From the NCBI RefSeq assembly GCF_004210375.1, contig NW_027467782.1, positions 28,623,276-28,687,275 of the forward strand: a stretch of 64,000 nt of DNA, read 5' to 3'. The translations under genes and the position numbers were made by a program. The notes beneath the pieces were generated by a model, which saw only the letters and a program-made list of their open reading frames with translations, was not told the DNA's origin and ran no database searches. Position 1 is the first letter of the stretch. Every line of letters starts with the position of its first letter. The stretch is from Tachypleus tridentatus (Eukaryota; Arthropoda; Merostomata; Xiphosura; Limulidae). Of the stretch, positions 17,584 to 54,648 are shown one piece after another.

Positions 17584-17585
17584 TA

Positions 17586-26338: not shown

Positions 26339-26340
26339 TA

Positions 26341-27596
26341 TTAGGTCATCCCATAAGTAATGTCATTTTTTGGGATAGGATAAATTTAAATGCATATTTC
26401 TTGGCTAAATGAAGTTATTCTCAAAGTCACACAAGTTATATGGGATGAAATAATAACATTCAGAGTAAACCAATTTGTTTTTTTACTAATTTTTGTTTTA
26501 TTTATTTTAGAAGCCCCAATTATCATGGAGGTGTCAGAAGAGCACATAAGGAATATAATGTTTTACAACTTCAGAAAATGAAAGAGTGCTACTGAAGAAC
26601 CATTCAAGATGTGTACAACAATGACATTCTGAATGTAAGGAAGTGTCAAAGATGGTTCCATAAGTTTAAAACTGGTGACTACAGTTTGACGGATGCAGCT
26701 CGCATTGAGAGCCCTGTTGAGTTCAATAATGACCTGCTTCTAGCAACACTTGAGAAAGATTGTGCTGTAACTGTTGAAAAATTAGCCCAGAAACTTAATT
26801 CATCTCCTTCCATTGTCCATCAACATTTGCAACTTGTTAGAGTTTTAAAGTTTGGAAAATGGGTAACACATGAGTTGTCAGCTTATAATCAGAAAGAATG
26901 AGTAGACATCTGCACATCTCTTCACTTTCATGAACTTCAAGCTTCATTTTTGAACCACCTATTTAGTGACTGGAGATAAGAAATGGATACTCTATCAAAA
27001 TGTCACACACTGCCAACAGTGGGTTAATACACTAGAACCAGCTACACTACAGTCAAAAGTGAACCTGTACTTCAGGTGGTGTAATACTCTTTGAGTTGTT
27101 ACAAACAGATCACACAATAACTGCTGAGAGACACTGGCAGTAACTGGATTAACTGAATGCTGCACTAAAAAATAAATCAAAAGAGACCTGCTTTGGTAAA
27201 TCAGAAAGGAGTTGTTTTCCACCATAACAATGCACATCCTAACATCGCTAGGGTCACTGTTAAAAAAATTGAACAGCTTAGCTGGAAGAAACTTCTCCGT
27301 TCTCCTTATTCTCCTGATCTTGCTCCTTCAGATTATGATATTTTCAAAAACTTGACACGTCATCTGAATGAAAAACAGTTTACTTCTATGATTTGTTAAA
27401 AAGTAACTCTTGTACCTTTTATATCTCAAAACAACTTGAGTTTTATAAGTGTGATATTGAAAATATTTTGATACATTTCCAGACTGTTATTGAGAAGAGA
27501 TGAAAAATATGTAATTGATTAAAGTTGTTATTTGAGTTATTTTTCTTCCTTTTAAATCTTAGTGTTAAAAATGATATTACTTATTGAATGACCTCA
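26341..27596 (+). mobile_element. mariner-family transposon
   Basis: The left end TTAGGTCATCCCATAAGTAA, and the complement of the right end TGAGGTCATTCAATAAGTAA, form an inverted repeat of about 30 bases (continuing TRTCATTTTT). TA precedes the left end at 26339-26340; the right flank is CA, probably a mutated TA. The 1256-bp length is right for mariner, and the transposase lies in the expected orientation. Confidence 0.88.
26525..27510 (+). pseudogene. mariner transposase, inactivated
   Basis: The start is ATG 26525 (MEVSEEHIRNIMFYNFRK, then a stop). The HTH and linker region follows in the frame 26611-26901 (RKCQRWFHKFKTGDYSLTD, VEKLAQKLNSSPSIVHQHL). The catalytic region shows TGDKKWILY at about 26960 (first Asp present). 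The next block is FHHNNAHPN at about 27220, where the usual second Asp is Asn. The third block, SPYSPDLAPSDYDIFKNL, keeps the Asp that makes mariner DD34D. Several stops and shifts separate these blocks. The second-Asp change alone would abolish catalysis. Confidence 0.85.
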
Positions 27597-30269
27597 CAGT
27601 TTTCATATATGTAGTGTAATCTACACAGGAAACCTAAACAGTAAAAAAAAGAAAATAATTGCATCACTGACAGTGTTTCTGTTTAAAGCTTTATGTGATT
27701 TTGTTGTCAACAAATTCAGGATGCAAAAATAGCTTAAAAAATTGTATTTATAAAACAAAGAGTAATCTATTAATGATTTTAGGATTTACTTAATAAGTTC
27801 ATTTATTCCACAACCTTCAACAGAAAAACATGTCTTTGAAATAGCATCTCAATATTACTTGCTAGAAAACAAACTACCAGAGCAGTTCCTAAAATTAAAG
27901 ATATAAGTATCTATCAATTAATATACATACAAACATGTACACACTTGTTTAGGCACACTTTCCCAGTTTGAATGATTTAACATTTCTTAACTCTTTTCTG
28001 TCTTCAATCTAATAAAACCTTATTTCTTCATCTTCTAACCACACTACAACATTGAAAACTCATTCTCATCTGTGAAATATGTATTTGAAAATATCAATAC
28101 ATTAGTTAATTCCATCCAGAACACAAACAAAATAAATTTAACTTGAGAAATACCAACTAAAATATTATTCAAAACATTGCCAAAAGCAATTTCCTACTGT
28201 CTTACTAATATTAAAGTGTATAACTTTACAACTACATGAAAGTGTAATTCTGAGAATAAAACAAATTATCAATCACTTTCAACTATAAAAACCTGAGTTT
28301 GAATACAATATAAAAATTCTTATAATATATTTAAACTGCTATAAGTTGCACTAACATTACAGTTAAAAAAAAACTTTATTACTAATATAAATTTCTAAAT
28401 GTTAAAATGAGACACATCTTAATACAACAAATAGAAATACAATTAGCCACATTGCACAGATGTTTAACTTGCATTTATTTTCACATAAAACAAATATTCT
28501 AACAAAATGTATTAAGTAACATTAAATTATCTCTTATAATAATACTGTTCTGAAACTTTATGTGCACTTCATTTTAAAAGATATAAACAAAAGGCAGGTG
28601 TAAATATACTTCAGTCAACATTTTGAAGTAATACATATTAAAAGCTAATCAAAGTTTTAAAAAGGTCTAACATTAATAAGTAATACAACATGGTAAGTTT
28701 ATTTATTGTTTTGAGTATGGTAAAGTTCAGCCCTAACTCAATTAAACCAAAAAATATACATAAATTACAGTGATAATTTATTTCTTTATAGCAGAAAGGA
28801 TGTATGCAAAATAAATGATTAACAAATGTCAGGCCTAAGACAAATGGACTTAAAATTTTGGTGTATGTGATGAGTTCTTTTGTATTACTCTAGTATTTAA
28901 AGAAGTACTGTTACAATAATTATATTAATTTTACTGCAAATGTTTTGTGGGTCTCTTTAAGCTAAAATTAATGAACACCAATTAACCAGTCATATTTCCT
29001 AAGTAACACTCTCTTATATTTTTGTTCTCAGAAGAATAACAAACCTGATTATTCTTTCTGATTCTAAACATGTTTCAATATGTTTCTTGTTGAAAGTTGT
29101 AAAGCTGTTTGATATATTTCTGCTCATAAAGGACAATGTAACTCAATATGGGTTTTAGATAAATTTACTAAGTAATGGTACTGTTGCTTCATTATGGGTC
29201 TGTATTATATATGTATCTTAAACATTTCTTGGGAAAGAAAGTAGTTTTTCTAACCTGATCTGGTACAGATTTAATAAAACTTCATTACTCTAACTCAAGT
29301 AGGATATAGTAATAACACTGAGGTACAATACAAAGTATACAAAAGGCCAACACTAAAATAAGTATTTAACTTTGAATGAAATACCTGTATTCTTTGAACT
29401 TTCTGGGTGAATTATTTTAACATATTTAATTCATTTTATTATCATACTGTACCATTAAAAAATCTATCACAATACTCATTTTGAAACTGGTTGATATTTA
29501 AAAATGAATTTAACAGTTTGATAGAAATATAGAGAATAACTTGTAACATGGTATTCTAAGTTAGTTCAGCTTGTGAAATAGATTCTAAAATAATTTAATC
29601 AGCCTAAGTGGACTTTTAACATGAAGAGAACTGTCACATTTAATATACCACTGTAGTCATCATAGTCTAGAGAATTCTTGTAGGTACATTTAACTTGTTT
29701 TAAATATATAATTTTAAAATAACTGGTGTGCTTGCTGCATGTTATTTTCAAATTTATCACTAACAAATCACAGACATCTACTGTAGAAGAATCCTAAAAC
29801 TTTGACGTATGTAGTTTCTGACTATGAGTTGAATGTTAAAATCTTCACAAGTATGCAGTGAAGTTAAAATGTTGATAGAAGCCACATGTTTATTTGCTCT
29901 TTGGTTACTCTGTTTCAAAATCTGGAAAGTCTCACCTAAATACTAAAATTCATTAAATACATATTTATTGTTACTCGTGACATACACAACATGACTAGAT
30001 AGTGGTGAGGCCCACGATAAACTAATGAAAAAATAAATAAGAGGCAGAGAAAAGTTTAGTTGAGGAAATTAGTATAGAAGTAATTAGAAGGGTAGACTTA
30101 TTTCTTACAATCATAATAACAGAAAAAAAAAAGATATAAAATAAATAACTTTAGAGCATTAGTAGGAATGAAAGATTTTGATATTATGGTAATTATAGCC
30201 TTTATTGCTTGAGAAAAGTTCGCTTCAAATAATAAGCTTTAAACGTCGCAATGACACCTTAATTCATTA
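27597..30269. other. AT-rich non-coding DNA
   Basis: I found no frame, splice pair or known repeat on either strand over this stretch. Probably intergenic or intronic. Confidence 0.5.
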
Positions 30270-31090
30270 ATTGCAGTAGAGATGTATTGGGTGGAAGAAA
30301 ATGAATTTTGAGATTTTCATTAAAGTCACAAAGTCCCGTTGGTTGGCTTTAAAGTTCAAGTTGTTTTCTTGTGCAGTAATGTTCAACTGCAGGACAAAAA
30401 TAACTTTTTAACCAGTCTTCAAACAAAGGTTTTGTGACCCATGCTTTTTTATTTCATCGCCAAACAACTGAGAGTCTTCTTTGCACAGCTGATTAGTGTT
30501 CGGGGGATTTCCGCACGATACACAAGCACACAGGTTTTAATTTAAAATCGCCAGATCCATTTCCGCCTAACAAGTGTTAAACGATCTTTTAACGCTTGTA
30601 ACATGGCCAAGTTTTTTCATTTTCTGATAGGAAAGTTCTAGAAGGCATATTTTCCCCAAAATAAACCCGTTTCATATTTGGTTATCTTTGTACCGAACTT
30701 TTTAATAATTTCTATAAATTCATTTGGAAATTTTTCAGCAGCATCTTTGTCTACACTTGAACTTTCGCCTGCAATACGAACATTATGGAAACCAGTGTTT
30801 GCTTAAAACAAAAGAACCAATCACGGCTTGCCGAAAATATTTCATTAGTTCCCCATTCTCCATCGTTCTCTTTTAAGGTGTTTAAAAGGCTCGTAGCTTT
30901 CGTTTGAATTTCCATTTGACTTAAAGGAATTCGTTTCTGATTACAATCTTCTAATCATATTGATAGCAGACGTTCCATATTCACCATTAGAGAGCTCCTT
31001 TTCTTTACGATTGTTTTCGAGGCAAAACAGTTGGTAGCCATTCAATACTGTTTTACTGGTTCTTTCATTGAAGTCTTACAGATGGTTCAT
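30270..31090 (-). pseudogene. Second pogo/Tigger-like transposase remnant
   Basis: On the minus strand, landmarks from right to left are: a HTH start region (NKGINEPSVRLQ near 31080); a CENP-B-like domain (RKRIPLSQMEIQTKATSL near 30900); FHNVRIAGESSSVDKDAAEK; and the first catalytic block read as KYETGLFWGK (about 30670), where the usual Ala-Asp-Glu is Lys-Tyr-Glu, so the Asp is lost. Then come MPSRTFLSENEKTW, ALKDRLTLVLGGNGSGDFKL and CVYRAEIPRTL near 30500. The downstream catalytic blocks are missing. It differs from the element at 19364 and is closer to Tigger1-type proteins. No inverted repeats seen. Confidence 0.7.
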
Positions 31091-31700
31091 TTATTCCTTT
31101 GTTTCGTGCTAGTTAGGTTTCTTTGGCTCGGTATCATCACACATTCTTTTCTCACGCATAATAAAAGGATCTCTGTAAAAAGTGTACACACGTTCTTAAC
31201 ATGAAAAAACTGAACTGCCGCTGACAGCAAGTGATGCTCAGATTTATACTGTGCAGTATATAATGTGCATGCGCATTGTATAGGCTTGCAGAAAGACCTA
31301 GAATAAGCGAATGACACAAATTCGTAGACATCTTTTCAGAAATATTAATTAAAATGTCAGCCATAATAAAAAGGGCCCAAAGACTTATACGTATATAAAT
31401 AAAGCCCCATTATAGTGAACCCCATACAGTTAAGCTGCACTGTGGACCTCCTTTAATATCCAAGAACACACTTCAAAGACGAAGAGAAATACGTAACAAG
31501 ATATTTATGAAATTGAAGATTTATAGAAATATAAATCTACGTTTCAAAAACCGAAGTGTCACAGTAACAAAAATTACATTTAACAAAGGATTTCATTCAT
31601 GTACTATCTTGTAATTGAGTTATACGTTAGTTTTGCATGCTATTCTTCTCAGTGTTTGGTTGTTTAACTGAGAAATGAACAACTTAAAATCTAGAAGCAT
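31091..31700. other. Non-coding stretch
   Basis: No supported feature. The open frames at 31087-31364 on the minus strand are overlapping, lack splice sites and have no recognisable motif. Confidence 0.4.
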
Positions 31701-31995
31701 GGTTTGGTTTGGGTTTTGGAATTTCGCACAAAGCTACTCGAGGGCTATCTGGCGTTCGACTCGTAATCCGAGGGTCGCGCGTTGAATCCCGGTCGCACCA
31801 AACATGCTCGCCTTTCAGCCGTGGTGGCGTTATAATGTGATGATCAATCCCACTATTCGTTGGTAAAAGAGTAGCCCAAGAGTTGGCTGTGGGAGGTGAT
31901 GACCAGCTGCCTTCCATCTTGTCTTACACTGCTAAATTAGGGACGACTACCACAAATAGCCTTCGAGTAGCTTTGTGCGAAATTCAAAAAACAAA
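31701..31995 (+). mobile_element. SINE family A copy with an inverted tail at its head
   Basis: 31752-31995 is a plus-strand copy: tRNA-like head (CGTTCGACTCGTAATCCGAG, then GGTCGCGCGTTGAATCCC as B box), the ATGCTCGCC...CAATCCCACT body, and a tail ending TTTGTGCGAAATTCAAAAAA. It is preceded at 31701-31751 by the complement of the same tail (GAATTTCGCACAAAGCTACT), where the first part of the tRNA-like head (A box) should be. The result is a 295-bp unit with inverted ends. Confidence 0.8.
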
Positions 31996-32595
31996 CTATT
32001 GAAATCTTATTAGTTTTGAAGAACAAAATATTAATACAGCTAATTGTAGTCATTAATCCTATATAACACCATGGAATGCAGTATTTGTCACATAAGTTAT
32101 ATATGTGAATATTCTTTAACTGATTTTTTAATTTAAATATTGTTACAGTGTTTGTAGGTTTATAACTACTCAATTATAATTTATATGTATCATAAGACAT
32201 CTGTTAGCAGTCTTATTATGGTTTATATCATAAATGCCGACTAAGATTTGTATTGTCAGAAGAAATTGCATAGAAAAATTTCGTATAAATTTTATTTGCT
32301 TTTACCTAAATTTCAAGTTGAACTCTTAGGCAAGTGTTGTTATTGTTTATTAAATCTAAATTATGCATAACATAAACATGAATATAATTTCTCTGTTCAA
32401 GCGTCTTTCACACCACAGAAAACAATAAACTTTGTAATCATTATTGTTAGTAAAACGTTTTTCTACCTCACAATGTTACTTCAGTTCATGACGTCATTCA
32501 AACAAGAATACTATTATGCGCATAGTAACACTGATATTTCACTTAGAAACAATACAGAAAGTGACTTACAAAGAGTACAGTGCAGAGAGATTTCA
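31996..32595. other. Upstream region of the immunoglobulin-domain gene
   Basis: AT-rich. A frame in line with exon 1 is open from 32473, so transcription may start upstream, but no TATA box or initiator can be singled out. Confidence 0.3.
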
Positions 32596-32884
32596 ATGGC
32601 TAATTACACTCAATTATTTTATATTTTCGGTAGTTTCCTGCTTGTTTCAGGTTTTACATTCGTCTACGAAATTGAACGTGGTTCTACTCTTACATTAATA
32701 TGTTCAAACCAAGCGAGAGAAGAACCAGTTATTTGGTACTCAAATCTCAAAGAAAAAGTTATTAATAGTGAGAGAACGCAAATAAAATACGGTGGCAAAT
32801 TAGTGCTAACCCACATCCAATTTGAAGACGCGGGAATTTACACATGCAAAAATCGTGAAGGTGATTACAAACATGATGTCAGAG
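32596..32884 (+). CDS. Exon 1: signal peptide plus immunoglobulin domain
   Basis: The ATG at 32596 is preferred over the in-frame ATG at 32473 because it opens a signal peptide (MANYTQLFYIFGSFLLVSG). One immunoglobulin fold of about 80 residues follows: beta-strand Cys in LTLICSN, core Trp in PVIWYSN, and the DxGxYxC signature as EDAGIYTCKN (V/I-set type). The exon ends AGAG|GTAAAT in phase 1. All later junctions up to exon 4 are phase 1 as well, so the domain modules can be exchanged as units. An acceptor-like CTTGTTTCAG ending at 32650 lies between the signal peptide and the Ig domain, also in phase 1. The exon might therefore also be used as an internal exon behind another first exon (inference). 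Membrane or secreted role; ligand unknown. Confidence 0.8.
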
Positions 32885-33357
32885 GTAAATTCATGGTGTT
32901 TTTTTTTTAGACCATATTTTCATTTATTAACCTGTACTAATTTAACAGAAATAGCATCTAAATTGATATCGTCCATCTTGCTTTTAAATTTCTTTCAGCC
33001 ATAACCTTTTCGTTTGATATTTCACTCACCATGTGTATTGATTTAAAAATTAATTGCCTGCGTATACGTAAGATTACACTATGTAAAATTTTTTTTTACC
33101 TTTTCTTGTTCCTGAGCAAAAAATGTTATTTCCTGATTGCTTATGCCTAAAGTAAATGGAAAAGGCCTATTGTCTTCAAACTTTGCTTTTGTGACTTGGG
33201 AGCGTGTATAACGAAAACATGATGGTAGAATATATTTGAGGGCTGATACGTGAAAGGGATTTATATTACAGTCGCAAATCTCGAAAAAGTATTTCTAAAT
33301 ATTTTTGTATAAATTTAGTATAAATACATGTAAATATTGATTCAGATGCTGTCAGGA

Positions 33358-33639
33358 TCCGGCATGGCCAAGCGTGTTAAGGCGTGCGACTCGTAATTTC
33401 AGCGTCGCGGGTTCGCATCTCCGTCGCGCCAAACATGCTCACACTTTCAGCCTGGGGGTGTTGTAATGTGACGGTCAATCCCACTTTTCGTTGGTAAAAG
33501 AGTAGCCCAAGAGTTTGCGGTAGGTGGTGATGACTAGCTGCCTTCCCTCTAGTCTTACACTGCTAAATTAGGGACGGCTAGCGCAGATAGCCCTCGTGTA
33601 GCTTTGAGCGTAATTCAAAAAACAAACAAACAAACAAAC
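33358..33639 (+). mobile_element. SINE family A, near full length
   Basis: Head CCGGCATGGCCAAGCGTGTT matches a Pol III A box; GGGTTCGCATCTCC is the B-box region. The conserved body (CAATCCCACTTTTCGTTGG, AGTCTTACACTGCTAAATTA) follows. The tail is GAGCGTAATTC and then (CAAA)n. The tRNA-like loop CTCGTAA suggests a Thr-type tRNA ancestor, tentatively. Confidence 0.9.
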
Positions 33640-34071
33640 CATCGTAATTTAAAAAATATAACAAATCTTTGGTTAAAAGGAATTTTAATTAAAACTTCAT
33701 TTATTAAAACTGGTGTTTTCTTTTAAATTGATTCTATTATTCTTGTGGTTCAGTATTTTCAAATGACTCGCAAATACGTTGTTTTTTTCACATTCTTTAT
33801 GAATAAATTTAAATCCAAGTCGTATAAGTATGTCTTTAGTTTAAGTAGAGTGCATATTTACAGAGAAAAATAGAAACAAAAACTCGCAGCTTAAAAACGT
33901 GTAATATAATCTATTGTACCATTTAATCATTAATTAAAAAAACGTTACGATTATAGTCTTATAATCGAACTGATAAGCAACCAGTTTTGGACTGACAACA
34001 GATAAAATCAGTTAACACTTAACATTAAATAACTATGTTCATGGAGTTATTGTTTTAATGAAATAGTCTCC

Positions 34072-34200
34072 CGATGGGACAGCGGTAAGTCTATGGATTT
34101 ACAACGCTAAGATCAGGAGTTCGATTGCCCTCGGTGGACACAGTAAATAGCCCGATGTGGTTTTGTTATAAGAAAAACTATGTGTGCTTGATCATTCGAA
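34072..34200 (+). mobile_element. SINE family B, best-preserved copy
   Basis: GATGGGACAGCGGTAAGTCT (A-box region), GGAGTTCGATTGCCCTC (B box), and the tail TAGCCCGATGTGGTTTTGTT with ATAAG. A tRNA-derived head with a short unique tail. Other copies in the window are at 12028, 23478, 52255 and 54649. Confidence 0.8.
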
Positions 34201-34225
34201 AAGCTTTTCATTCTCTACAGTTAAT

Positions 34226-34577
34226 TAGAAAGTTAAGTTCTTGCTTTCTACTCCAAGTAAGCTATCAAATATATTAGACAAAAGTGAAAGAAGATTACCT
34301 CATACTTACAGTTTGTGGTCCCTACATATAGTTGTCAGATTTTCATGTATTACACGTGGACTGATATTATTACAGCTATAATAAGTGCATCTCTTTTCAA
34401 TTTATTCAAACATTTTCAAGGTACCTCTAAGTGTAGCTGTAGTAATGTCAGTCCACGTGTAATAAATGAAAATCTGATAACTATGTGTAGGGGCCACAAA
34501 CTATAAGTGTGAGGTAATCTTTTGCTTAATAGATTTGATAGCTTACTTAGAGTAGAAAGCAAGAACTTAACTTTCTA
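34226..34577. repeat. 352-bp fold-back inverted repeat
   Basis: The left arm starts TAGAAAGTTAAGTTCTTGCT and the complement of the right arm starts with the same bases. Pairing continues through CTTACAGTTTGTGGTCCCTA / CTTATAGTTTGTGGCCCCTA and ATTACACGTGGACTGA to the centre, with a loop of roughly 40 bases around 34390-34425. Arms are about 155 bases with few mismatches. No coding capacity; consistent with a fold-back MITE inserted beside a SINE-B. Confidence 0.85.
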
Positions 34578-34835
34578 TTTGCGGTCACATACAGCGCTTG
34601 TACTAACATAGCTAACTCCGATCTACTGTTTTCCACTGTAAAAGCTAACTACTGTCAATTATTCTGAATTTTGTCTTTGAAAACTAACATCTCAGCTCTT
34701 GTTTTGTATATTTTATTTTGTTTTTCTGTGAATTGATATATTAGTGATACTTACCAATGATCTGAAGACTTTTCTAATCATGGTTTTCAGTTGGTTGATT
34801 CAAATAATTCATATTATTCGTTTGTTCACCTTCAA

Positions 34836-35111
34836 TTTGTTTGTTTGTTTTGGAATTTCGCACAAAGCTACTCGAGGGCTATCTGTGCTAGCCGTCCGTA
34901 ATTTAGCAGTGTAAGACTAGAGGGAAGGCAGCTAGTCATCACCACCCACCGCCAACTCTTGGGTTACTCTTTTACCAACGAAAAGTGGGATTGACCGTTA
35001 CATTATAACACCCCCAGGCTGAAAGTGTGAGCATGTTTGGCGCGACGCGGGCGCGAACTCGGACCCTCGGATTACGATTCGCGCGCCTTACGCGCTTGGC
35101 CATGCCGGGCC
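34836..35111 (-). mobile_element. SINE family A, near full length, minus strand
   Basis: The tail (TTTGTTTG)n GGAATTTCGCACAAAGCTAC comes first, then the body (AAAAGTGGGATTGACCG), and the head complement ending CGCTTGGCCATGCCGGGCC. Same family as 33358 in the opposite direction; the pair could pair into a hairpin in the intron transcript. Confidence 0.9.
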
Positions 35112-37704
35112 CTTTTTCACCTACAAAGTAAATAATTTCTTTATAGAATTGTCTCTGTTGATCAAACTGTTGTTACTGCACCAGATAGGAATTTTAAAAT
35201 ACTCCCATCTACGTTAATTAAATTGTGTTTATATCGATTTCGTTCATAAAACGATACGTTATCTTTTATATCATTTCATTGTAATGAAAATTGAACTGTC
35301 TTATTTTCATATTATAGTTTTTAACAACCTTCGTGTAATTTCCTATTAATACTATCTGCATTACTCTTAGTATTCTCAGAATATTTTGTAAATTATAAAA
35401 TCTTGAAAATTAAAAGTATCATCTTCAAACTATAATACATCGAACAAGATTTATTAAATTTTATTAATATAGATATAAAAGTGTTTCTTTATATTGGTTT
35501 AATGTGTGTTTGCTCTTGTATTACAAGGAATTATTTGGTTTATCGTCTAATGATGTTGGATTCTCTGTTTGAATTTAAATGTTACCTGTAGTATATTTAT
35601 TTGAGTTGCAGTGTTAAATTTAAAACGTGAAATTCTTTTTTTGTGTTACATGAATGTTGTTTTGAGTTTCGGGCTTGTTTCTCTGACGTAAAATACGTGG
35701 AAGTTGCCATAAAGTATTTTATAAATGACATTAGTATTGTATTTGCTTTATTTTTTTTACAAGAATTTAAGTATTTTGTTTATTGTATTTGGGGTTATTG
35801 ACAGGGTGGGTATCGTGTTGTTGACTGAGGTTTCTCTATATCACCGTTATCTCAAATCTCCTTCCTAGTCGCTTTATAACCTAGAAACATCGAACTATAT
35901 ATGAATTCTGTAATAAAAAGTTTTAAATTACCCATTGTAGAACGTCTGCAAAATTTATTAGCTTCAAGTGGGTTCCTCAGAAATATAAATGCATGAAATA
36001 GATTATTACAATAATGTTAAAAGTACTTACAAGGAATTATTACTTTAGAGATAACATGAAATCAGTTTTTCTTAATTTTAATGATAGGAAATGTCGATGT
36101 TGGAGTGTGGTATGAATAAGTATTGGTAAACATATCCACATATAATTACTTTAAATGTTACCATCAATACTACACTCTTTGTTCGTCCATATACTGATCC
36201 ATCTAATCAGGACTCCAGTAATGGGTGATATTGTCCAACCCAAGGTGCAGATGTTGATATTGACAGCCATAATATACTCTTGGAAGATGTATCACATTCC
36301 ATTAGTTGATGCTAAAGATGCCCTGAAAAGAGTTATTTCAGGGCAGTGATGAAGACGAACGCGTAATCTTATCGGTACTCCTGTAATAAACATACAGTAT
36401 TAGTCAGAGGCTGTCACTGATGTTCATAGCAATAATACTTTATAGTTTATAGGGATTAGTAAGCCATATCAAAACAGTTTTGAATATGCAACCTGTCATA
36501 TAATGTGACTCGATCTGATATAACATTTCTTAAATGGTGTGATGTAACCGAAAATTGGTAGCTTTTGGGAAAGGTATGTAACAGACCTTTCCAATGTAAA
36601 TTTTTATATGCCCATATCATGAAAATATATTCAAATGAGAATTTAAATTTTTCGAAACAAAGATATTTATTGTACGTAAGAGCATCGAAGAAATAATTTT
36701 GGTTAGCCAGAATAATTCGGAAAAAGACCTACAACAAGTCGTACGAACACAAATGTCAGAGATAAAAACCGCTGAAGTGTCCCAGGCGATGGTACGTAAA
36801 AAAATATCTCAGTCTTCTAACCGCTGAGTAATTAGATAGATATGCATGTTATTGTACACACAGACACACCAGTCACGTCACTGATGTAAGAATTATAGAT
36901 TTCTATGTGATCAGAGACTAGATGGATTATGGTAAACCTGTAGAGAGAAGTGATGAGGCTCCAAAGTTATTTTGATATAATGAACTCAACTTGTGAATGT
37001 TGAAGCAAAATCTTTTGTACTCTAAAGATACAAATTATATCTACGAAGTTTTGAGAACGTATTTTGAATAAACAATATTATAAATTTACAGTGAAAGGTG
37101 TTAGATCGCTATATTATTTATCTTGATAAATCCGCAAAAAATTAAGTATTTACTTTTATATTAACTTTAAATGAAAAATTTTCTCGGAATGCATTTCATC
37201 CAACTTCTGAATTATAAGGATATTATTTGATATTTTGTTGTTTGCAAGACACAATCATACACTGATACATTTTACCAACGTAATATTCCCAAAAGAACCT
37301 GTATTTTCATAACTGATATTAACATAAACAGGGACAACAGTTTAACGTTTAACTGTGACAAATAAGAATTTTGCAAGGGAAACACCAACGGAAATCAATT
37401 GTACCTATAGATATAACATAAAAAAAAGATCGTGTGTAATTTCATAAATTTCCAAGTTTGTGTGATTAGTTTCATTAGTTAACTTAATCAGGAAGTACAT
37501 GAAGAAACAAAAGTCTACTGTTAAGAAACTGTTTTGACACGTTTTATTTTTCTCACAAAAGTAACATTTATGTTGTTATTTTACAACATTATTTATTTTT
37601 AATATTATAACTAGTGCGTCGTGCTCATTGTGAAAAACCTTAAAATTCAAACGGTGACACAAAACGTGCTAATAAAAATATTAACTCTCTGTTGTTTTCT
37701 CCAG

Positions 37705-37767
37705 TGTATATTCCAGCCGAGAATCTCAACTGTACTCGTGGATACCAAAGAGATGTTAACAGGTGTT
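37705..37767 (+). CDS. Exon 2: short linker exon
   Basis: Acceptor TTTTCTCCAG ending at 37704; donor TGTT|GTAAGT. 63 bases, 21 codons, phase 1 at both ends. It encodes VYIPAENLNCTRGYQRDVNR followed by Cys. Two Cys residues and an N-C-T glycosylation site lead from the Ig domain into the Cys-rich module. The junctions with exons 1 and 3 preserve the frame exactly, which is the main evidence for this small exon. Confidence 0.75.
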
Positions 37768-37950
37768 GTAAGTACATATGATACTCAATTACTTTAAACT
37801 GTTCACATTAAACACAAATAGATGAAATACTTTTAAAAATATGGAATTTTAGTTCAACATATACGTTTTTTGATACTAAAGACGTTGTTAGAACAATAAA
37901 ATTAACACTGGGTAAATAAATGTTTAGCTTTGTACTTTTAACGCTTTTAG

Positions 37951-38112
37951 ATCCATGTCCTCCTGGTCACTATGACAATGGATTCCAAACTCACTGCCTG
38001 CCGTGTCCAGGAGGGACTTACATGGCATCTTTTGCTGCTGACGCCTGTGTAGCTTGTCCTGATGACGAAATTACTGATGAAGAAGGAGCTGATAATAAAG
38101 ATCTTTGTAGAA
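37951..38112 (+). CDS. Exon 3: GCC2/GCC3 (ephrin-receptor-like) Cys-rich module
   Basis: Acceptor ACGCTTTTAG ending at 37950; donor AGAA|GTAATG. 162 bases, phase 1 at both ends. It encodes PCPPGHYDNGFQTHCLPCPG, GTYMASFAADACVACPDD and then an acidic stretch ending DNKDLCR. The C-x-PC-x2-G-x-Y ... C-x2-CP-x-G-x-Y ... C-x2-CP spacing is that of the GCC2/GCC3, or ephrin-receptor-like, repeat found in SVEP1, SCUBE proteins and Eph receptors. One such module is complete. It is extracellular, and the Cys pairs are expected to form disulphides. Confidence 0.85.
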
Positions 38113-39621
38113 GTAATGGAACAAAAGGGTTTTAAAGTTTTCTTTTATTGTTTCCTTAACATTTTAAAAAATGTTTATTTTTGTTCATGCAGATTGTTAT
38201 AATACGATACTTCTTCATAACTTTCATGGTTTTTAATGCATTAAAAAACTTTGCTTTTACTGAGAAATCCTACTACTCGTTTTTAAAGATGAGCTCAAAC
38301 ATTTACGACAAATAGTATTGAATAGCTGTCTTACCTCCAGCATATCATTTCAAAATTATGAACGGCTAACGCTGAAAGTCCTCGTTCAGGTATCCGCGAA
38401 ATTGAAAAACAAACATATATAACGGTGTATCAATATCACATCTGTGTGCGTCACATTATTACTAAAAAGACGTAAAGATATTTAACTAAAACAGTGTATG
38501 TCCCAAAACATAACTTAAATCTATGTTTAACATGTTTATTTTGTGTACATAATGTCGTTTTTGTAATAAAATAAAGTAATTTGTCCAAATACAAAACAAA
38601 TGTTTTAAAATACGATTATAACAACATTGGATTATCAAAACGTTAGCAGTGTCTCATGAGTACTCAATAAAACTATTAGAAAGAATTGTTACCAAGTAAA
38701 CAAAAAACTTCGTCAGTAGTGACGTACGACGTTCAGTGTTTGTGGTCAAAATGGTATCGTTATTTATCTGGGAAATTTAGAGTAAAGAGAAATTTGTAAA
38801 AATTACTGTTTTTTAATAGTGTTGTAAAGACGCAGAAACTACCATTCAGTGGATACGATTCTATAGTAAAATATAATTATGCACCATAATAAGTGAAGCT
38901 GTTAATTATAAAACTTAACACAGTAAGTGAATACCCATTAAACAAACTGACTTTATTAAGTAGTCAATGGAAAGACAGTTTGTTTAATTTGTGTTATACA
39001 TCTTTACAGTTTTAATGAATCTAAGTTGATTTAACTCACTGTGTTATACTGAGTTGTATAATATGTCAATTATCGTAAAGAAAATGTCTAGATTTTTCTT
39101 ATATAGTCTGATCACGTGTGTTTGGAATGGAAAGTCAGTCGGTTTCTTGTTGTATTGTCTATTAATGTAAATATGTTGGAAAACCTAGCTGATTTTATGT
39201 TATATAACTATATAGTTGGAGTTATTACATAACTGTACTACTTGTCTACTAGTAAGGAGCTCAAATAATATAACAGGCGTCATTTTTCTTTGCTAATTAT
39301 CGTTTAAAGTGTAAAGAAAAAATGTATTTTTACAGTTGTCAAATTGTAAAGGTTATTATCAATGTTTAATATGAAAATATATTATAAGTGTAAGAAGTTT
39401 CATATTTATTCAATTGAAATTTTAATATGTTAATGAAGATTATTGTTGAACTTAAAGAATTATACACATTACTATTATTGTTAACTTACATTTGAAGTTT
39501 CATTTTTCTGTTTTACGTGACCGGTGGAGTACGTAAACTGATTTTAAATACGACTCTCTGTCTTAAGATCGAATTGAAGTGGTTTCGAAGGCTACGCTTC
39601 ACTTGACTTCAAAATCTACAG
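38113..39621 (+). other. Intron 3 of the immunoglobulin-domain gene
   Basis: About 1.5 kb, AT-rich, with a decayed SINE-A tail at 38361-38416 (GGCTAACGCTGAAAGTCCTC, then GCGAAATTGAAAAACAAAC). No further exon seen. Confidence 0.5.
38361..38416 (+). mobile_element. SINE family A tail fragment
   Basis: Matches the last 55 or so bases of the full copy at 33358, with several substitutions. Confidence 0.55.
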
Positions 39622-39676
39622 TTCCAAGATGCGCTTGGCGAACAGCACTCATTTTGATGTGTCTTACTGCTTTGTG
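39622..39676 (+). CDS. Exon 4: first part of the transmembrane helix
   Basis: Acceptor AAAATCTACAG ending at 39621; donor TTTGTG|GTAAGT. 55 bases. With the single base carried over from exon 3 it reads IPRCAWRTALILMCLTAL and then the split Cys codon completed by exon 5 (phase 2). The joined segment WRTALILMCLTALCVLCFF is a hydrophobic stretch of about 19 residues followed by YTWKYKPREER, the positive-inside stop-transfer signal of a type I membrane protein. The frame fits only one of three possibilities, and that one matches both neighbours. Confidence 0.75.
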
Positions 39677-39784
39677 GTAAGTTACTGTGACGCATTATCC
39701 ATAGCTTATTTAATTACAATATGTATTTTAATGGACTTCAAACACGTGATTCTTATTTATTTATTTTCTGTAATGATCATGCAG

Positions 39785-40095
39785 CGTACTTTGTTTTTTC
39801 TACACCTGGAAATATAAACCTCGGGAAGAACGGAATGTTTTGAAAAACCGTGTCGAACACAAACAGCTTGGTGATGAAAAGATAACCACTGATGAATTGG
39901 ATATTTTGGAGGCTATGCCACTGATCCCTGAATGTGAGAAGAAGGTCTCTGCAAAAAATGTTAAGAAGACAAAAACTAATATTCCAAGAAAGCAAAAAGT
40001 GACCAAACGAACAACCCTGGAGACAATATATGAAAACGACCTAGGAGAAAGGAATACTTTGGTTCGAAATTCAATTAAGTTTTTATTCATCTTAC
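39785..40095 (+). CDS. Exon 5: end of the helix and cytoplasmic tail
   Basis: Acceptor ATGATCATGCAG ending at 39784, one leading base. It encodes VLCFFYTWKYKPREERNVLK, then a charged Lys/Glu-rich tail including ELDILEAMPLIPECEKK and TTLETIYENDLGERN. The Y-E-N tripeptide matches the minimal Grb2-SH2 binding pattern pY-x-N; this is suggestive only. The frame stays open to 40104. The donor chosen here is TTAC|GTAATA (phase 1). Phase-0 alternatives such as AAG|GTCTCT near 39945 cannot be excluded, so the 3' end of this exon is uncertain. Confidence 0.6.
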
Positions 40096-41015
40096 GTAAT
40101 AATTAATATTTGATGCAAGTAAATTCACATTTTTACAGTTAAAAAAAAAAGATGCGTTCAGAGAATCTTTAATGTTCAGAGTCGTTTGAATACGTGCAAT
40201 TTTTTTTCTCCAAAATAGACTTATACATGTTCGATACCATTGAGGTCTAATAAGTCTATATGCTAGTTAAATTGATGAATCACCTCTTCTTCAATCTTAG
40301 TACATGTTGGAAGACAATTACCATCCATTAAACTGAACACAGAGCCAATCATAACAATATATGATTGTGTAAGAAGTTCGCATTACCTTTACTGTTGTCC
40401 ATAGCATTAATAACATCTGGAAAACATAAAGATCAGAATGCCCTTTCGTAATTTTTCATTCACATACATACTACCACTACTGATAATAAAAGCGAATTAT
40501 TTTGTACATTAGTGGCACCATAATATATCACTTCCGCTCATATTGCTCACTTTATTTCGTTTTTTAACTGTATGTACAATGAAATGACGTCATGTTGGAG
40601 CTTTGAACATCTGATTCAGATATTATCAGGTTAAACATAATCGGTATATAACGGCAATTTGCTTTAAAGGTGGATTGGGACCTTCTTAGCCAAGTACCAG
40701 TGTATTTGTGCCATTTTGTTGCAAGTGGTTCAACTATATCTTGTTGATGACGCTTTCAGACATTTTACAACAGTTTTTTTTCTTCTTTTGACTGTCAGCC
40801 AACTTTCATTGGTTTGAAAGACATTTAGTGAAATATCCAGTTCTCTTCTTTTGGACTTTACTAAGATTATTGATTGTTTTAAAACGCTATAAGGTGCGTG
40901 ATTTATTCCAAAGTTGCAAAAAAATAAGACAGTTTTAAAACTGTTTCTCTCTGTAACATAAGGTAAATAACCAGTCGTTTGAAGTTCAGATCACATAACT
41001 TTTCATGTTTAATTT

Positions 41016-41343
41016 ATATAACAACAAATTGAGTAGAACACTTAACATTTAATTATAAACGTACTTTCATCTTGTCTAGTTATATAACAATAAATTGAGT
41101 AGAACACTTGACATTTAATTATAACCGCACTTTCATCTTGTCTAGTTATATAACAATAAATTGAGTAGAACACTTGACGTTTAATTATAACCGCACTTTC
41201 ATTTTGTCTAGTTATATAACAATAAATTGAGTGGAACACTTGACATTTAATTGTTACCGTACTTTTATCTTGTCTAGTTATATAACAATAAATTGAGTAG
41301 AACACTTAACATTTAATTATAACCGTACTTTCATCTTGTCTAG
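41016..41343 (+). repeat. 66-bp minisatellite, five copies
   Basis: GAGTAGAACACTTRACRTTT starts at 41031, 41097, 41163, 41229 and 41295. Copies differ by a few bases. Because 66 is a multiple of three, the minus strand holds an 87-codon frame of 22-residue repeats, an artefact of period length. It lies within an intron of the immunoglobulin-domain gene. Confidence 0.95.
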
Positions 41344-41629
41344 ACAATAATATAAACAATCTAGTTATCCTTTGTGAACGTGTAAAATATAAATGGAAAA
41401 CAGTATTTAAGCTATTGTCTGCTGTATATCATTCTTTATTCACTGCGTGAAACAATGTTTGAAATAGTTTTTCTAGTTTCCAGAAAACATTTATGAGATA
41501 ACTGAAACCAATTTCATAATTTATAATTTTTATAGAAACATTTATTTGGTTTTATGCATGTTATAGTAAAATTATTGCTCAAATTTTGAGTGTTGCACCA
41601 CTAAACATAACTATATTCTACATCTTCAG

Positions 41630-41842
41630 AGAGAAACACCAGCGTCAAAACAAGGAAAAGCTATTAAAGAATATATCCAGCGACCTCTGTTTCCTAGAAA
41701 TGTGAACAATTACGATGAACTTATTATCGTTAAACCAAATAGTAAACAAGGACATCGAAAAAAAAAAAAGGTTGTTATTCTCATTGAAAATTCTGACAGC
41801 CAAGATACGTTTATCATTGGAAAAGTTCGGAAAGAAACCTGA
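41630..41842 (+). CDS. Exon 6: probable last exon of the tail
   Basis: Acceptor CATCTTCAG ending at 41629, followed by two more AG in tandem (to 41631 and 41633), so the exact start is ambiguous. The frame reads RETPASKQGKAIKEYIQRPL, FPRNVNNYDELIIVKPNSKQ, a Lys run, and ends VRKET with TGA at 41840-41842. NYDEL is a YxxL-type sorting or ITAM-half motif. A run of 12 A crosses the frame at 41758-41769; one base gained or lost there would switch to another open frame that ends near 42003. Joining to exon 5 needs either phase 0 (first AG) or phase 1 (third AG), so this is the least certain exon of the gene. Confidence 0.5.
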   Translation, partial: RETPASKQGKAIKEYIQRPLFPRNVNNYDELIIVKPNSKQGHRKKKKVVILIENSDSQDTFIIGKVRKET

Positions 41843-43779
41843 TTTTTCTTCAAAACTGAGAAATAGAATTAATAAACGAATTTATAAAACAGCCATTGTT
41901 AATATGCTCACTCTAGAGTTAAGAGAAATCAAGATGGCTTTTATCTCCGCACTATACAGTTACACTAATGGGATTGATACTCACAAAATTGCACAAAATT
42001 TTTAAATTCACCATCATTGATATTATTGGTTTAGCAGAAACTTACATAGTAATTTAGCTATTTACATTTATCTACAAGCAAATTAAATATAAACTCTGAA
42101 AACTTAACGTTTTAACATATCGGGACATTCATAACTATTATTTAAATTTAAGAGACTGTGGCTTTAGTTCAACAATTCACAAGCGTTTGTTTCATGTTTT
42201 TTATGATTTCCTTTCATGCAGTATTTATTTATTACGACATATAAAGTTAAAACTTGAATAAAATATTAAACCAAAAGTAATGAAATGTTTGTTTACATAT
42301 TTTTCGCCCATTTAAATGTAACAGCTATTATACATTAAATGCTCATTTCGGTAATAATTGTGTGTTTGTTTATATTGTTTGTAATATAGCTCTAAGTAAA
42401 TTTACTGTCATAATATAGTCCTGCAATTCACAGTTGTTACACTGAGATTTACATGCAACATTTTTTACTGAAATGTATCATCTACATGAACTTCTTCAAT
42501 TTCTACGTTTAATGTGTTTGACATAGTTGATTACTTCGCTTAAAATGTATTGGTTCTTCAATTATTACACATTGATAATTTTCTTGTGCTTTGTCTACAT
42601 GTTGATTACGTATTAATTATACAACATTTTCAGTAGAATTGTTGTGATATGCCTATGACATATTCTGTTGTTATCTTACAGTTTATATTTATCGTTTTCA
42701 AATGGTACTCAGTGATTAACGTGTAACACTGTTAAGATATAATTTACATGCAACCATTTTCGGTTATTAAAGTATTATTGACATGTGTCATCTTTCAGAG
42801 TGACGTAGCTAGCTGTTAGAGGTTGCGTCACACTGATTGTTACAGTTTATGCCTGAAATCAATAAACTAAAAGCTTGAAATACATTTTTACTTTAGTGTC
42901 TACTGTGGATGTGCTGGAACTCTAAATAAAGATAGTTTTAACTGACTCTCGACCATAGTTAACTAGTTCACGTGTTTCACGTGCATGTATAGCGTGTCCT
43001 CTGCATTAAGGAACAAGACTCTTTCCATCATCTGATAATGAATGAATGAATGTCGTCGGTGTTTGGGTACATACCCTGGAGGGTCAGTGTTCTCTAAGAC
43101 TTCTTCCTCCAACATCTGATAACATGGAGACATGTTTTGTTTTTGAAAAGGACGCCAGTCTTCCAATAGGAAGGTCGTGTAAGTTAATAATCAACTAGAA
43201 TTTTCTTATCATCAAATTCAATACACGTGCTCTGCCTGTAACTTTGTTGTTGCTCTAGTGGCTGGAGTCGAAGATATTTTAATTTCGTGGTTGTTTGATC
43301 TTAATTAATTCTGTCCTGACAGAAAATGTCGGACAAAAACTTAATACAATTCATCACACGATAAAACGAATATTTTATTAGTTTAAGAAAGAAATGTTAA
43401 AACTAAACCGTCCTTTTAAATCCGATGCAGAATATCCACAATCACGAAAACTTCAGATTTCTATTCTCTCATGAACTATATTTTTCTGGAAAACAATTTT
43501 CAACTAATAGCAGTACTGATACATAGTGCAGAATAATTCTAATATTTTAACTACCAAAGACTGCCATCATGCTATTAAACATAGGAGGATAGATTCAGAA
43601 AATCAGATGCTTCATTATAAAGTGGTTATTTCTAATAATTTTCATATTTGATTAAATATTAATTTCATTATTTTAAGAGAATTGTCAGGAATAGTGGACA
43701 AATCCATAACTGCAAAAGAGGGAGCTTTATATTGATCAACTGCCTGATCAGAAAATGTCAGTTGATAAATAATTTTGTT
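41843..43779. other. 3' UTR and downstream DNA
   Basis: GAATAAAATATT near 42255 is a possible polyadenylation signal for the gene above. A minus-strand frame at 42963-43166 (MEDWRPFQKQNMSPCYQMLE, then EEVLENTDPPGYVPKHRRHS) has a protein-like composition but no identified homologue. An acceptor-like TATTGGAAG lies before it. I list it as a possible orphan exon, not a gene. Confidence 0.35.
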
Positions 43780-43828
43780 TGAATTTCGCGCTAAGCTATA
43801 CGAGGGCTATTTCCGCTAGTCGTCCTTA
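43780..43828 (-). mobile_element. SINE family A tail, cut by the gap
   Basis: TTTGAATTTCGCGCTAAGCT and GAGGGCTATTTCCGCTAGTC match the tail of the family in minus orientation. The rest is lost in the N run. Confidence 0.7.
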
Positions 43829-44328
43829 NNNNNNNNNNNNNNNNNNNNNNNNNNNNNNNNNNNNNNNNNNNNNNNNNNNNNNNNNNNNNNNNNNNNNNNN
43901 NNNNNNNNNNNNNNNNNNNNNNNNNNNNNNNNNNNNNNNNNNNNNNNNNNNNNNNNNNNNNNNNNNNNNNNNNNNNNNNNNNNNNNNNNNNNNNNNNNNN
44001 NNNNNNNNNNNNNNNNNNNNNNNNNNNNNNNNNNNNNNNNNNNNNNNNNNNNNNNNNNNNNNNNNNNNNNNNNNNNNNNNNNNNNNNNNNNNNNNNNNNN
44101 NNNNNNNNNNNNNNNNNNNNNNNNNNNNNNNNNNNNNNNNNNNNNNNNNNNNNNNNNNNNNNNNNNNNNNNNNNNNNNNNNNNNNNNNNNNNNNNNNNNN
44201 NNNNNNNNNNNNNNNNNNNNNNNNNNNNNNNNNNNNNNNNNNNNNNNNNNNNNNNNNNNNNNNNNNNNNNNNNNNNNNNNNNNNNNNNNNNNNNNNNNNN
44301 NNNNNNNNNNNNNNNNNNNNNNNNNNNN
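43829..44328. other. Assembly gap (500 N)
   Basis: Exactly 500 undetermined bases, a conventional placeholder size. It sits between a SINE and the start of the satellite array, so the array length and left border are unknown. Confidence 0.99.
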
Positions 44329-47300
44329 CTATCCTCAATTCATGTTCTTACACATATACTGTTTAACCGTATTACAAGAATTCTTCAAACCGGTTTAACG
44401 GTTCCAACGGATCAAACCGGTAGTAACCTCAATTTGCAAGTTTTTTACATATTTATATTCTGTTTTGACCGTATTACAAAATTTTCTTTTAAACCAGTTT
44501 AACCAGTTCCAACCTAATCAAACGGTTCTAACCTCAATTCGTGTTGTTACACTTTATATGCTGTTTTGATTTTATTAAAATTCTTCTTTTAAACCGGTTT
44601 CAACGGTTCCCACTGGATCAAACCGGTTCTAACCTCAATACGCATGTTTTACACTTTATATGCTGTTTTACCGTATGCAGAATCCTTCTTTTAAACCGGT
44701 TTAATGGTTTTCAAGGAATCAAACAGGTTCTAACCTCAATTCTGCATGTTTTACACTTTATTTGCTGTTTTGACCGTATTACAAGAATTCTTCTTTTAAA
44801 CGGTTCAAACGGTTAATCAGTTCTAACCGGATCAAACCTCAATTTCCATGTTTTTACACTTTATATGCTGTTTTAACTGTATTACAAGAATCCTTCTTTT
44901 AAACCGGTTTTAATCAGTTCAACAGGATCAAACCGGTTCTAACCTCAATTTGCATGTTTTTTTACACTTGATATGCTGTTTTGACTTTATTACAAGAATT
45001 CTTCTTTTAAACCGGTTTTAACCGGTTCCAACCAGAATAAACCGGTAATAACCTCAATTTGCATGTTTTACACTTTATATGCTGTTTTCAATTTATTATA
45101 AAGATTTCTTCTTTTAAACCAGTTTTAAACTGTTCCCACCGGATCAAACATGTTCTAACCTCAATTTGCATGTTTTTGCACTTTATTTGCTGTTTTGACC
45201 GTATTACAAGAATTCTTCTTTTAAACCGCATTAAACTGGTTCTAACCTCAATTTGCATGTTTTTACACTTGATATGCTCTTTTAACCGTATTACAAGAAT
45301 CCTTCTTTTAATGAGGATCAAACCGGTTCTAACCTCAATTCGCATGTTTTTACATTTTATATGCTGTTTTAACCGTATTAAAAGAATCCTCCTTTCAAAC
45401 CACATCAAACCGGTTCTAATCTTAAATCGCATGTTTTTTTACACACTTTATATGCTGTTTTAACCGAATTACAAAATTCTTCTTTTAAACCGGTTTTAAC
45501 CGGTTCAACCAATTAAACCGGTACTAACCTCAATTTGCATGTTTTTACACTTGATATGCTCTTTTGATTTTATTAAAAGAATTCTTCCTTGAAACCGGTT
45601 TTAAGCGGTTCCAACCGGATCAAACCGATTTTAACCTCAATTTGCATGTTTTTACACTTTATATGCTGTTTTGATTTTATTAAAGAAATCTTCTTTTTTA
45701 ACCGGATTAAACTGGTTCCCTCAATTTGCCATATTTATATTCTGTTTTTTTGACCATACTCAGAAAATCTTCTTTAAAACCGGTTTTAACTGGTTCAAAC
45801 CTGGATCAAACCGGTAATAACCTCAATTTCCATGTTTTACACTTTATATGCTGTTTTAATGTATTACAAGAATTCTTCTTCTAAGCGGTTCAAACCGGAT
45901 TATCTAATTCCGTTTTAACCGGATCAAACCAGTTCTAACATCAATTTCCATGTTTTTACACTTTATATGCTGTTTTAACTGTATTTCAAGAATCCTTCTT
46001 TTAAACCGGATCAAACCGGTTCAAACCTGAATTCGCATGTTTTACACTTTATATGCTGTTTTAACCGTATTACAAGAATTCTTCTTTTAAACCGGTTCCA
46101 ACCGAATCAACCGGTACCTTAACTGATTTCAACCGGATCAAACCGGTTCTAACCTCAATTCGCATGTTTTACAGATTATATGCTGTTTTCATTTTATTAT
46201 AAGAATTCTTCTTTTAAACCAGTTTTAAGCGGTTCCCAACGGATCAAACATGTTCTAACCTCAATTTGCATGTTTTGCACTTTATTTGCTGTTTTGACCG
46301 TATTACAAAGAATTTCTTTTAAACCGGTTTTAACCGGTTCCAACTGGATTAAATCGATTTTAATATCAATTTGCATGTTTTTACACTTTATATGCTGTTT
46401 TGATTTTATTAAAAGAATTTTTCTTTTAAACCAGATTAAACTGGTTCCTACCTCAATTTGCATATTTATATTCTGTTTTGACCATTACTACAAGAATCTT
46501 CTTTTAAACCGGTTTTAACCGTAGTTCCAACCTTAAACTCAAACCGGTTCTAACACTCAATTCGCATGTTTTTACACTTTATATGCTGTTTTAACCAGTT
46601 TCAAGAATCCTTCTTTCAAACCAGTTCAAACCAATCAAACCGGTTTTAATCTTAAATGCAGGTTTTAACTCTATTATTCGCATGTTTTCAAAGATTATCA
46701 TGCTGTTTTAATTTTAACGTTATAAAATTCTTCTTTTAAACCAGTTTTAAACGGTTCCCAACCGGATTAAACCGGTTCTAACCTCAATTTGCATGTTTTA
46801 CACTTTATATGCTGTTTTGATTTTATTACAAGAATTCTTCTTTTAAACCGGTTTTAAGCGGTTCCAACCGGATCAAATCGATTTTAATATCAATTTGCAT
46901 GTTTTTACACTTTATATCCTCTTTTGATTTTATTAAAGAAATCTTCTTTTTTAAACCGAATTAAACTGGTTCCTACCACAATTTGCATATTTATATTCTG
47001 TTTTGACCATACTACAAGAAATCTTCTTTAAAACCGGTTTTAACCAGTTCCGACCTAATCAAACCAGTTCTAACCTCTATTCGATGTTTTTACACTTTAT
47101 ATGCTGTTTTCACTTTATTACAAGAATTCTTCTTTTAAACCGGTTTTCAACGGTTCCCACTGGATCAAACCGGTTCTAGCCTTAATTTGCAAGTTTTTAC
47201 ATTTTATATGCTGTTTTTACCGTATTACAAGAATCATCCTTTTAAACCGCATCAAACCGGTTCTAACCTCAATTCGCATGTTTTTACACTTTATATGCTG

Positions 47301-48480
47301 TTTTAACCGAATTACAAGAATTCTTCTTTTAAACCGAATTAAACTGGTTCCTACCTCAATTTGCATATTTATATTCTGTTTTTTGACCGTTACTACAATA
47401 ATCTTTCTTTTAAACCAGTTTTAACCGGTTCCAACGGGATCAAACCGGTTCTAACATCAATTTGCATGTTTTTACACTATATATGCTGTTTTGACCGGAT
47501 TCTTCTTTTAAACCGGTTTTAACCGGTTCCAACCGGATCAAATCGATTTTAATATCAATTTGCATGTTTTTACACTTTATATGCTCTTTTGATTTTATTG
47601 AAAGAATTTTTCTTTTAAACCGGATTAAACTGGTTCCTACCACAATTTGCATGTTTATATTCTGTTTTGACCTTACTACAAGAAATCTTCTTTTAAACCG
47701 GTTTTAACTGGTTCCAATCTAATCAAACTGGTTCTAACCTCAATTCGCATGTTTTTACACTTTATATGCTGTTTTCACTTTATTACAAGAATTCTTCTGT
47801 TAAACCGGTTTTAACCGGTTCCAACCGGTTCATACAGGTTCTCACCTCAATTCACATGTTTTTACTCTTTATTTGCTGTTTTGACAATATTACAAGAATT
47901 CTTCTTTTAAACCGGTTTTAACCGGTTCTAACCGGATCAAACCGGTACTAACCTCAATTTGCAAGTTTTTACATTTTATATGCTGTTATAACCGTATTAC
48001 AAGAATCCTCCTTTTAAACTGCATCAAACCGGTTTTAACCTCAATTCCCGTGTTTTTACACTTTATATGCTGTTTTAACCGAATTACAATAATTCTTCTT
48101 TTAAACCGGTTTTAACCGGTTCCATCAGATCAAACCGGTACTAACCTCAATTTGTATGTTTTACACTTTATATGTTGTTTTGACCGTATTACAAAATTCT
48201 GCTTTTAAACTGGATCAAACCGGTTCTAACATCAATTCGCATGTTTTTACACTGTATATGCTGTTTTAACCGTATTACAAGAATTCTTCTTCTAAAAGCG
48301 GTTCAAACCGGTTAATCTGGTTCCAACCGGATCAAACCTCAATTTCCATGTTTTACACTTTATATGCTGTTTTAACTGTATTACAAGAATCCTTCTTTTA
48401 AACCGAATCAAACCGATTTCATACGGATCAAACCGGTTCTAACCTCAATTTGCATATTTTTTACACTTTATGTGTTGTTT
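44329..48480 (+). repeat. ~107-bp satellite array rich in AACCGGTT
   Basis: About 4.15 kb of roughly 39 diverged tandem monomers. Each runs GCATGTTTTTACACTTTATA, TGCTGTTTTGACCGTATTAC, AAGAATTCTTCTTTTAAACC, then GGTTTTAACCGGTTCCAACC and GGATCAAACCGGTTCTAACC, then TCAATTT. The second half carries several copies of the palindrome AACCGGTT or close variants per monomer, and many monomers carry an EcoRI site. Monomers vary in length by internal loss of the CCGGTT subrepeats. Open frames on both strands (for example 45059-45463 and 46180-46518) are period artefacts. The left end is hidden by the gap. Confidence 0.95.
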
Positions 48481-48715: not shown

Positions 48716-48727
48716 TGAAAATCAATA

Positions 48728-53494: not shown

Positions 53495-53496
53495 TA

Positions 53497-54590: not shown

Positions 54591-54648
54591 TAACTGACAC
54601 CTAATAAAATTCAATTTAGATGTTAGAAAATTGCTCATACTGACGTCC

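Follow-up and report, generated by a model that had tools for sequence, protein, structure and literature searches.

A probable single-pass receptor gene with one immunoglobulin domain and one Ephrin_rec_like module in the horseshoe crab Tachypleus tridentatus

Contactin and NCAM2 carry several immunoglobulin (Ig) domains each and also have FN3 domains, type I neuregulins follow the order Ig, EGF, transmembrane helix and tail, and ZPBP1 and ZPBP2 (Sp38) display an Ig domain followed by a cysteine-rich module with C-x-x-GY and CxPGxY patterns. The gene considered here lies on the forward strand of a 64,000-nucleotide stretch of the Tachypleus tridentatus genome (contig NW_027467782.1, positions 28,623,276 to 28,687,275; this whole stretch is called the window, and its own numbering is used throughout), between positions 32596 and 41842, and would encode a protein with one Ig domain, one Ephrin_rec_like module, one membrane helix and a basic tail. 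It shares with type I neuregulins the order of one Ig, one cysteine-rich module, one helix and a tail, but harbours Ephrin_rec_like where those proteins harbour EGF. Unlike Contactin and NCAM it possesses a single Ig domain and no FN3 match; relative to Eph receptors it has one cysteine module only, with no match to the Eph ligand-binding, FN3 or kinase domains; and, compared with ZPBP1 and ZPBP2, whose Ig and cysteine-rich patterns it shares, it has a hydrophobic helix and is without their long middle stretch. Taken as a whole, the locus is probably a real animal gene for an ordinary single-pass adhesion or recognition receptor of the Ig superfamily.

The features of the gene model, all on the forward strand, are as follows.

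32596..32884, forward strand: exon 1, with the start codon, a signal-like peptide and the Ig domain to strand F; donor GAG/gtaaat, phase 1
37705..37767, forward strand: exon 2, with the last Ig strand (VYIPA) and cysteines 1-2 of the cysteine module; phase 1-1
37951..38112, forward strand: exon 3, with the Ephrin_rec_like (GCC2_GCC3) module and 6 further cysteines; phase 1-1
39622..39676, forward strand: exon 4, with the first part of the transmembrane helix; acceptor uncertain, donor GTG/gtaagt
39785..40106, forward strand: exon 5, with the remaining transmembrane helix and the basic tail; weak donor, or read-through to the stop at 40104-40106
41630..41842, forward strand: exon 6 (tentative), with the final 70 tail residues and a stop
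41871..41876, forward strand: poly(A)-signal hexamer AATAAA, shortly 3′ of the exon 6 stop

When joined, the first five exons (the last running from 39785 onward) form a single open frame of 275 residues, with GT/AG at all four junctions (32884/37705, 37767/37951, 38112/39622 and 39676/39785). Exons 1 to 4 measure 289, 63, 162 and 55 nt, which sets junctions 1/2, 2/3 and 3/4 in phase 1 and junction 4/5 in phase 2, bearing out the claim of an earlier note on this DNA that the extracellular junctions are all phase 1. The same note took these phases to permit module shuffling; the phases themselves are real, but that idea is weakened, as introns and module borders do not coincide. The first intron interrupts the Ig domain ahead of its last strand, the second falls within the cysteine module, and the signal peptide and Ig are not separated by any intron. 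Symmetric 1-1 units are confined to exons 2 and 3 and, because both are symmetric, isoforms without exon 2 or without exon 3 are predicted to be able to keep the frame.

The domains, their order and the open frame can be read directly from the DNA. In a Pfam hidden Markov model search of the joined protein, the Ig domain was matched by Ig_3 (34.6 bits against a cut-off of 30), I-set (30.7 against 23.7) and ig (25.3 against 21.8), and the cysteine module by Ephrin_rec_like, PF07699, a family formerly named GCC2_GCC3 (39.1 bits, cut-off 23.1). With both above their curated cut-offs, the protein belongs to the Ig superfamily and to the Ephrin_rec_like family, and the one Ig and one GCC2/GCC3 module that had been read from the sequence alone are borne out by the search that was proposed for them. 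The exons carry these matches individually, with Ig_3 at 37.2 bits and I-set at 32.9 bits for exon 1 alone, and Ephrin_rec_like at 40.8 bits (against the same cut-off of 23.1) for exon 3 alone. A blind Pfam scan of the three forward frames of 28001-42902 (14.9 kb, stop codons replaced by X, E-value limit 1) recovered just two domain loci, exon 1 (Ig) and exon 3 (Ephrin_rec_like). Matches in the exon 3 frame fell solely at exon 3 (Ephrin_rec_like, 5.7e-8) and those in the exon 1 frame solely at exon 1, where I-set (25.1 bits) exceeded its cut-off and Ig_3 (29.7) lay just below 30, and the third frame yielded no Pfam family; short exons such as exon 2 fall under the detection limit of scans of this kind. 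The eight module cysteines and the Cys-Trp-Cys core of the Ig are intact in the translation. No NCBIfam family was matched.

Amongst sequences of solved structure (PDB), the Ig domain is nearest to Contactin-1, NCAM2 and Contactin-2. The whole-sequence E-values for Contactin-1 (2.8e-11) and NCAM2 (2.1e-10) are summed over several Ig domains, and the best single stretches give 0.026 and 0.0039, respectively. The cysteine module is nearest to those of Mst1, thyroglobulin, ELAPOR1 and the Eph receptors, with which it shares cysteine spacing and CPxGxY motifs. Membership of more specific families did not follow from Pfam: the Eph ligand-binding, FN3 and kinase domains were found neither in the joined protein nor on the forward strand of 28001-42902, no EGF model was listed near the membrane as neuregulin-type proteins would have, TNFR_c6 of the TNF receptor superfamily reached at most 23.2 bits (cut-off 29.4), and the ELAPOR1 TNFR-like model at most 25.3 bits (cut-off 33.2). 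With regard to published descriptions, one paper describes an Aplysia receptor with leucine-rich repeats and a GCC2_GCC3 region rather than Ig and GCC2_GCC3 (PMC4200351), and the words 'immunoglobulin' and 'ephrin' are absent from the main texts of two horseshoe-crab genome papers (PMC7815833, PMC7210998). In the titles and abstract openings of the open-access matches listed, which came from poorly aimed queries and for two of these were a small share of all matches, no description of an Ig plus GCC2_GCC3 layout was recognised.

That the Ig and the cysteine module share one gene is best evidenced by exon 2, which on its sequence appears to complete both. Once exon 1 is extended by it, the I-set alignment ends at 85 rather than 74 of 90 profile positions and that of V-set at 107 rather than 92 of 109, and a CD3-delta-type Ig scores 19.9 bits, up from 16.4; no such extension of the Ig occurs when exon 1 reads into intron 1 or jumps to exon 3. 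The best PDB match, Contactin-1, likewise aligns across the exon 1-2 junction, to residue 101. On the other side, exon 2 supplies the first two cysteines, bringing the module total to eight, and its addition to exon 3 lets the ELAPOR1 TNFR-like alignment start at position 2 of 41 instead of 16, its end staying at 36 (21.8 to 25.3 bits), with Ephrin_rec_like gaining little (40.8 to 43.3 bits). Intron 1 holds 143 open phase-1/1 candidate exons, 36 of which contain at least two cysteines, and a strict splice context is passed by five of the 143, namely exon 2, its 12-base-shorter form and three others.

The domain matches and hydropathy support a single-pass layout of putative signal peptide, one transmembrane helix and basic tail, as had been suggested. 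The top hydrophobic 19-mer (Kyte–Doolittle (KD) score 2.26) straddles exons 4 and 5, and the second peak (KD 1.57), called on hydropathy only, falls on the signal-like stretch at the N-terminus. Joining exon 6 at 40061 gives a tail of 153 residues with 35 K+R and 23 D+E, which includes an acidic dileucine-like motif, EAMPLI. Exons 5 and 6 match no Pfam domain, and this 153-residue tail contains neither an immunoreceptor tyrosine-based activation motif (ITAM, a YxxL/I pair) nor a hemITAM (D/ExxYxxL); signalling would therefore need adaptors.

From these elements we infer topology, surface location and a role, as parts of a reading that we regard as moderately likely: a genuine animal gene, whose product is a compact type I membrane protein serving as a surface adhesion or recognition receptor. 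The signal peptide would lead the protein to the cell surface, where the membrane-distal I-set-type Ig would probably make contact with a protein ligand or with a partner cell, and the disulphide-rich Ephrin_rec_like module would provide a rigid spacer or a further contact. A single helix would cross the membrane, and the basic tail, about 100-150 residues long according to where the 3′ end lies, would work via adaptors or trafficking, with EAMPLI possibly driving endocytosis. Our best guess is thus a putative role in adhesion or recognition with endocytic cycling. If transcribed as modelled, the gene adds one more small uncharacterised surface receptor, and with its two modules would be an amenable subject for assays of adhesion or recognition.

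Splice sites were scored with approximate position weights rather than a trained model, and ranked among 665 donors and 514 AG acceptors. High ranks were obtained for the donors of exons 1, 2 and 4 (10, 23 and 2 of 665, respectively) and for the acceptors of exon 2 and exon 6 at 41630 (6 and 11 of 514), whilst the exon 3 donor ranked only 98, and exons 3, 4 and 5 have acceptors of rank 79, 99 and 83. Of the statement that exons 1-4 join in one frame with good splice sites, the frame and the GT/AG borders therefore stand, and the quality of the sites does not throughout, several scores being mediocre. The initial observation of this gene largely holds, and can be called partly confirmed.

Several points weigh against the receptor reading or parts of its gene model. 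Function does not follow from the modules, because I-set and Ephrin_rec_like are both widespread. Single-sequence structure predictions are weak, with predicted local distance difference test (pLDDT) values of 53 for exon 1 (32653-32883) and 59 for exon 3 (37953-38111), too low for structure models to confirm the folds. Exon 2 leaves the leading Ig scores almost unchanged (I-set 32.9 bits without and 33.0 with it, Ig_3 37.2 and 36.5), lowers TNFR_c6 from 23.2 to 19.2 bits when added to exon 3, and has competitors, in that two of the three other strict intron 1 candidates likewise carry two cysteines. The start codon has T at position -3. A dileucine-like motif occurs in 21% of shuffled tails. 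The exon 4 acceptor is ambiguous, as 39568 and 39646 lie in the same frame and score slightly above 39622, altering the protein by +18 and -8 residues, respectively. Exon 5 donors in phase with exon 6 are weak, the best being 39998 (-0.4), 39944 (-2.1) and 40061 (-2.9), and use of 39998 would drop a YEND motif from the joined tail; a second possibility is that exon 5 runs on to the stop at 40104-40106 and is not spliced to exon 6. Finally, coding composition sets apart exon 3 only (3 of 702 background segments equally high), the corresponding counts being 45 of 86 (exon 1), 1411 of 4451 (exon 2), 712 of 5369 (exon 4), 15 of 102 (exon 5) and 77 of 314 (exon 6), in a test whose background segments overlap and are not independent. 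The hexamer at 41871 is weak evidence for a 3′ end, given that 40101-42300 contains 11 AWTAAA hexamers, and we are unsure of the 3′ half of the gene model.

A more specific role, as an immune recognition receptor, would have a haemocyte Ig protein bind microbes or damaged self and signal via tail tyrosines. The small single-pass Ig ectodomain fits this putative function, as do YEND (YxN, in exon 5) and YDEL (YxxPhi, in exon 6) in the possible tail, the two motifs that had been proposed to couple to SH2 or adaptor proteins. Both exist, but at frequencies expected by chance, with YxN found in about 25% and YxxPhi in 66% of shuffled tails (n=2000). ITAM, hemITAM and TRAF-type motifs were all absent among the patterns tried, and tblastn of the Ig, Cys, tail and exon 6 peptides against the window returned their source exons and otherwise nothing better than E 0.17, i.e. 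no paralogue in the window. We consider the immune role unlikely, and the earlier note's interpretation of a recognition or adhesion molecule with a signalling tail is supported in part.

A decaying or truncated copy, i.e. a pseudogene or a piece of some larger Ig or Cys-repeat gene in place of a complete small receptor, could account for the transposase fragments in the surroundings, for the several mediocre splice sites and for most exons having a coding composition not above background. Set against this, all five main exons read open, their phases agree and their four junctions have GT/AG, the cysteines of the module and the core of the Ig are all present, and Pfam detected no further Ig or Cys module on the forward strand of 13101-42902, a search in which exons of the size of exon 2 lie below detection. 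A decaying or truncated copy is an improbable explanation.

It is also rather doubtful that the gene represents a lineage-restricted, compact chelicerate family, in which Ig plus Ephrin_rec_like would form a minimal head, and the symmetric exons 2 and 3 would permit isoforms with or without the Cys module, for self/non-self or gamete recognition.

The layout of an Ig followed by a Cys-rich part, an order common to ZPBP (Sp38) and this protein, suggested membership of that sperm family, which was rejected as both Pfam family models failed whilst a ZPBP1 control passed. The Sp38 N-terminal Ig model scored 12.6-15.1 bits (cut-off 23.1) and EGF_Sp38_C was not listed at E up to 10, where filters remove most matches above 0.1; the control, a ZPBP1 segment, gave 132 bits for Sp38 and 96.7 bits for EGF_Sp38_C. 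Pairwise evidence for a remoter kinship is mixed. BLASTP against a human ZPBP1 segment produced two short collinear matches (E 6e-4 and 0.008, in a single comparison), and the Ig raw score against ZPBP, 58, lay above every one of 1000 shuffles that kept C and W in place; the Igs of NCAM2 and Contactin-2, however, score at least as high against the ZPBP Ig (58 and 69; Contactin-1, 45), and the Ig of this protein is nearer to NCAM2, Contactin-1 and Contactin-2 (82-91) than to ZPBP. Similarly, the Cys module scored 54 against the ZPBP C-terminus, above four yardstick modules (43-50); 4 of 1000 shuffles that keep C in place reach this value, but so do 89 of 1000 once P, G and Y are kept as well. 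The modules of Mst1 and thyroglobulin match it more closely (82-102) than ZPBP does. The yardsticks were chosen for matching this protein, which favours a non-ZPBP outcome. The long ZPBP1 stretch between Ig and Cys part is also missing. A membrane-anchored gamete protein of the ZPBP kind, or one remotely related to it, is very improbable; what the tests reject is membership, not remote kinship.

Beyond the gene itself, Rfam and ARAGORN gave 0 matches and no tRNA in the window, and a search of viral contigs returned 7 pattern matches and 0 relatives. Pfam scans of the three forward frames of 13101-28002 (E up to 0.1) yielded transposon domains only, and one forward frame of 48500-63400 yielded no match; of the remainder (1-13100, 42903-48499, the two other forward frames after 48500 and the minus strand) the searches covered only individual open reading frames from a set of nine.

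Repeats occur both within and around the gene, and the mariner-, Tc1- and pogo-type transposon fragments amongst them point to an animal genome. Intron 1 contains two opposite copies of a repeat resembling a short interspersed element (33408-33621 and 34848-35061, 93% complementary over 214 bases), and between them, at 34223-34580, a palindromic element that resembles a miniature inverted-repeat transposable element and consists of inverted repeats nested in one another (62 nt, 92%; 95 nt, 88%). The putative last intron before exon 6 includes five tandem 66-base units (41014-41343, 93% matching), within which AWTAAA hexamers recur at 66-base spacing. Further downstream, a 500-base run of N (43829-44328), presumably an assembly gap, adjoins a tandem array at 44329-48480 with units mostly of 86-107 bases and multiples thereof. 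Remains of a pogo/Tigger-like transposon lie at 19987-21180 on the forward strand, with CENP-B_N, a Tc5-type helix-turn-helix and DDE_1 spread over two frames, and Tc1/mariner-type transposase fragments (DDE_3, HTH_48) are found at 16286-16603 (reverse strand), 26596-26901 (forward strand) and 52931-53242 (reverse strand).

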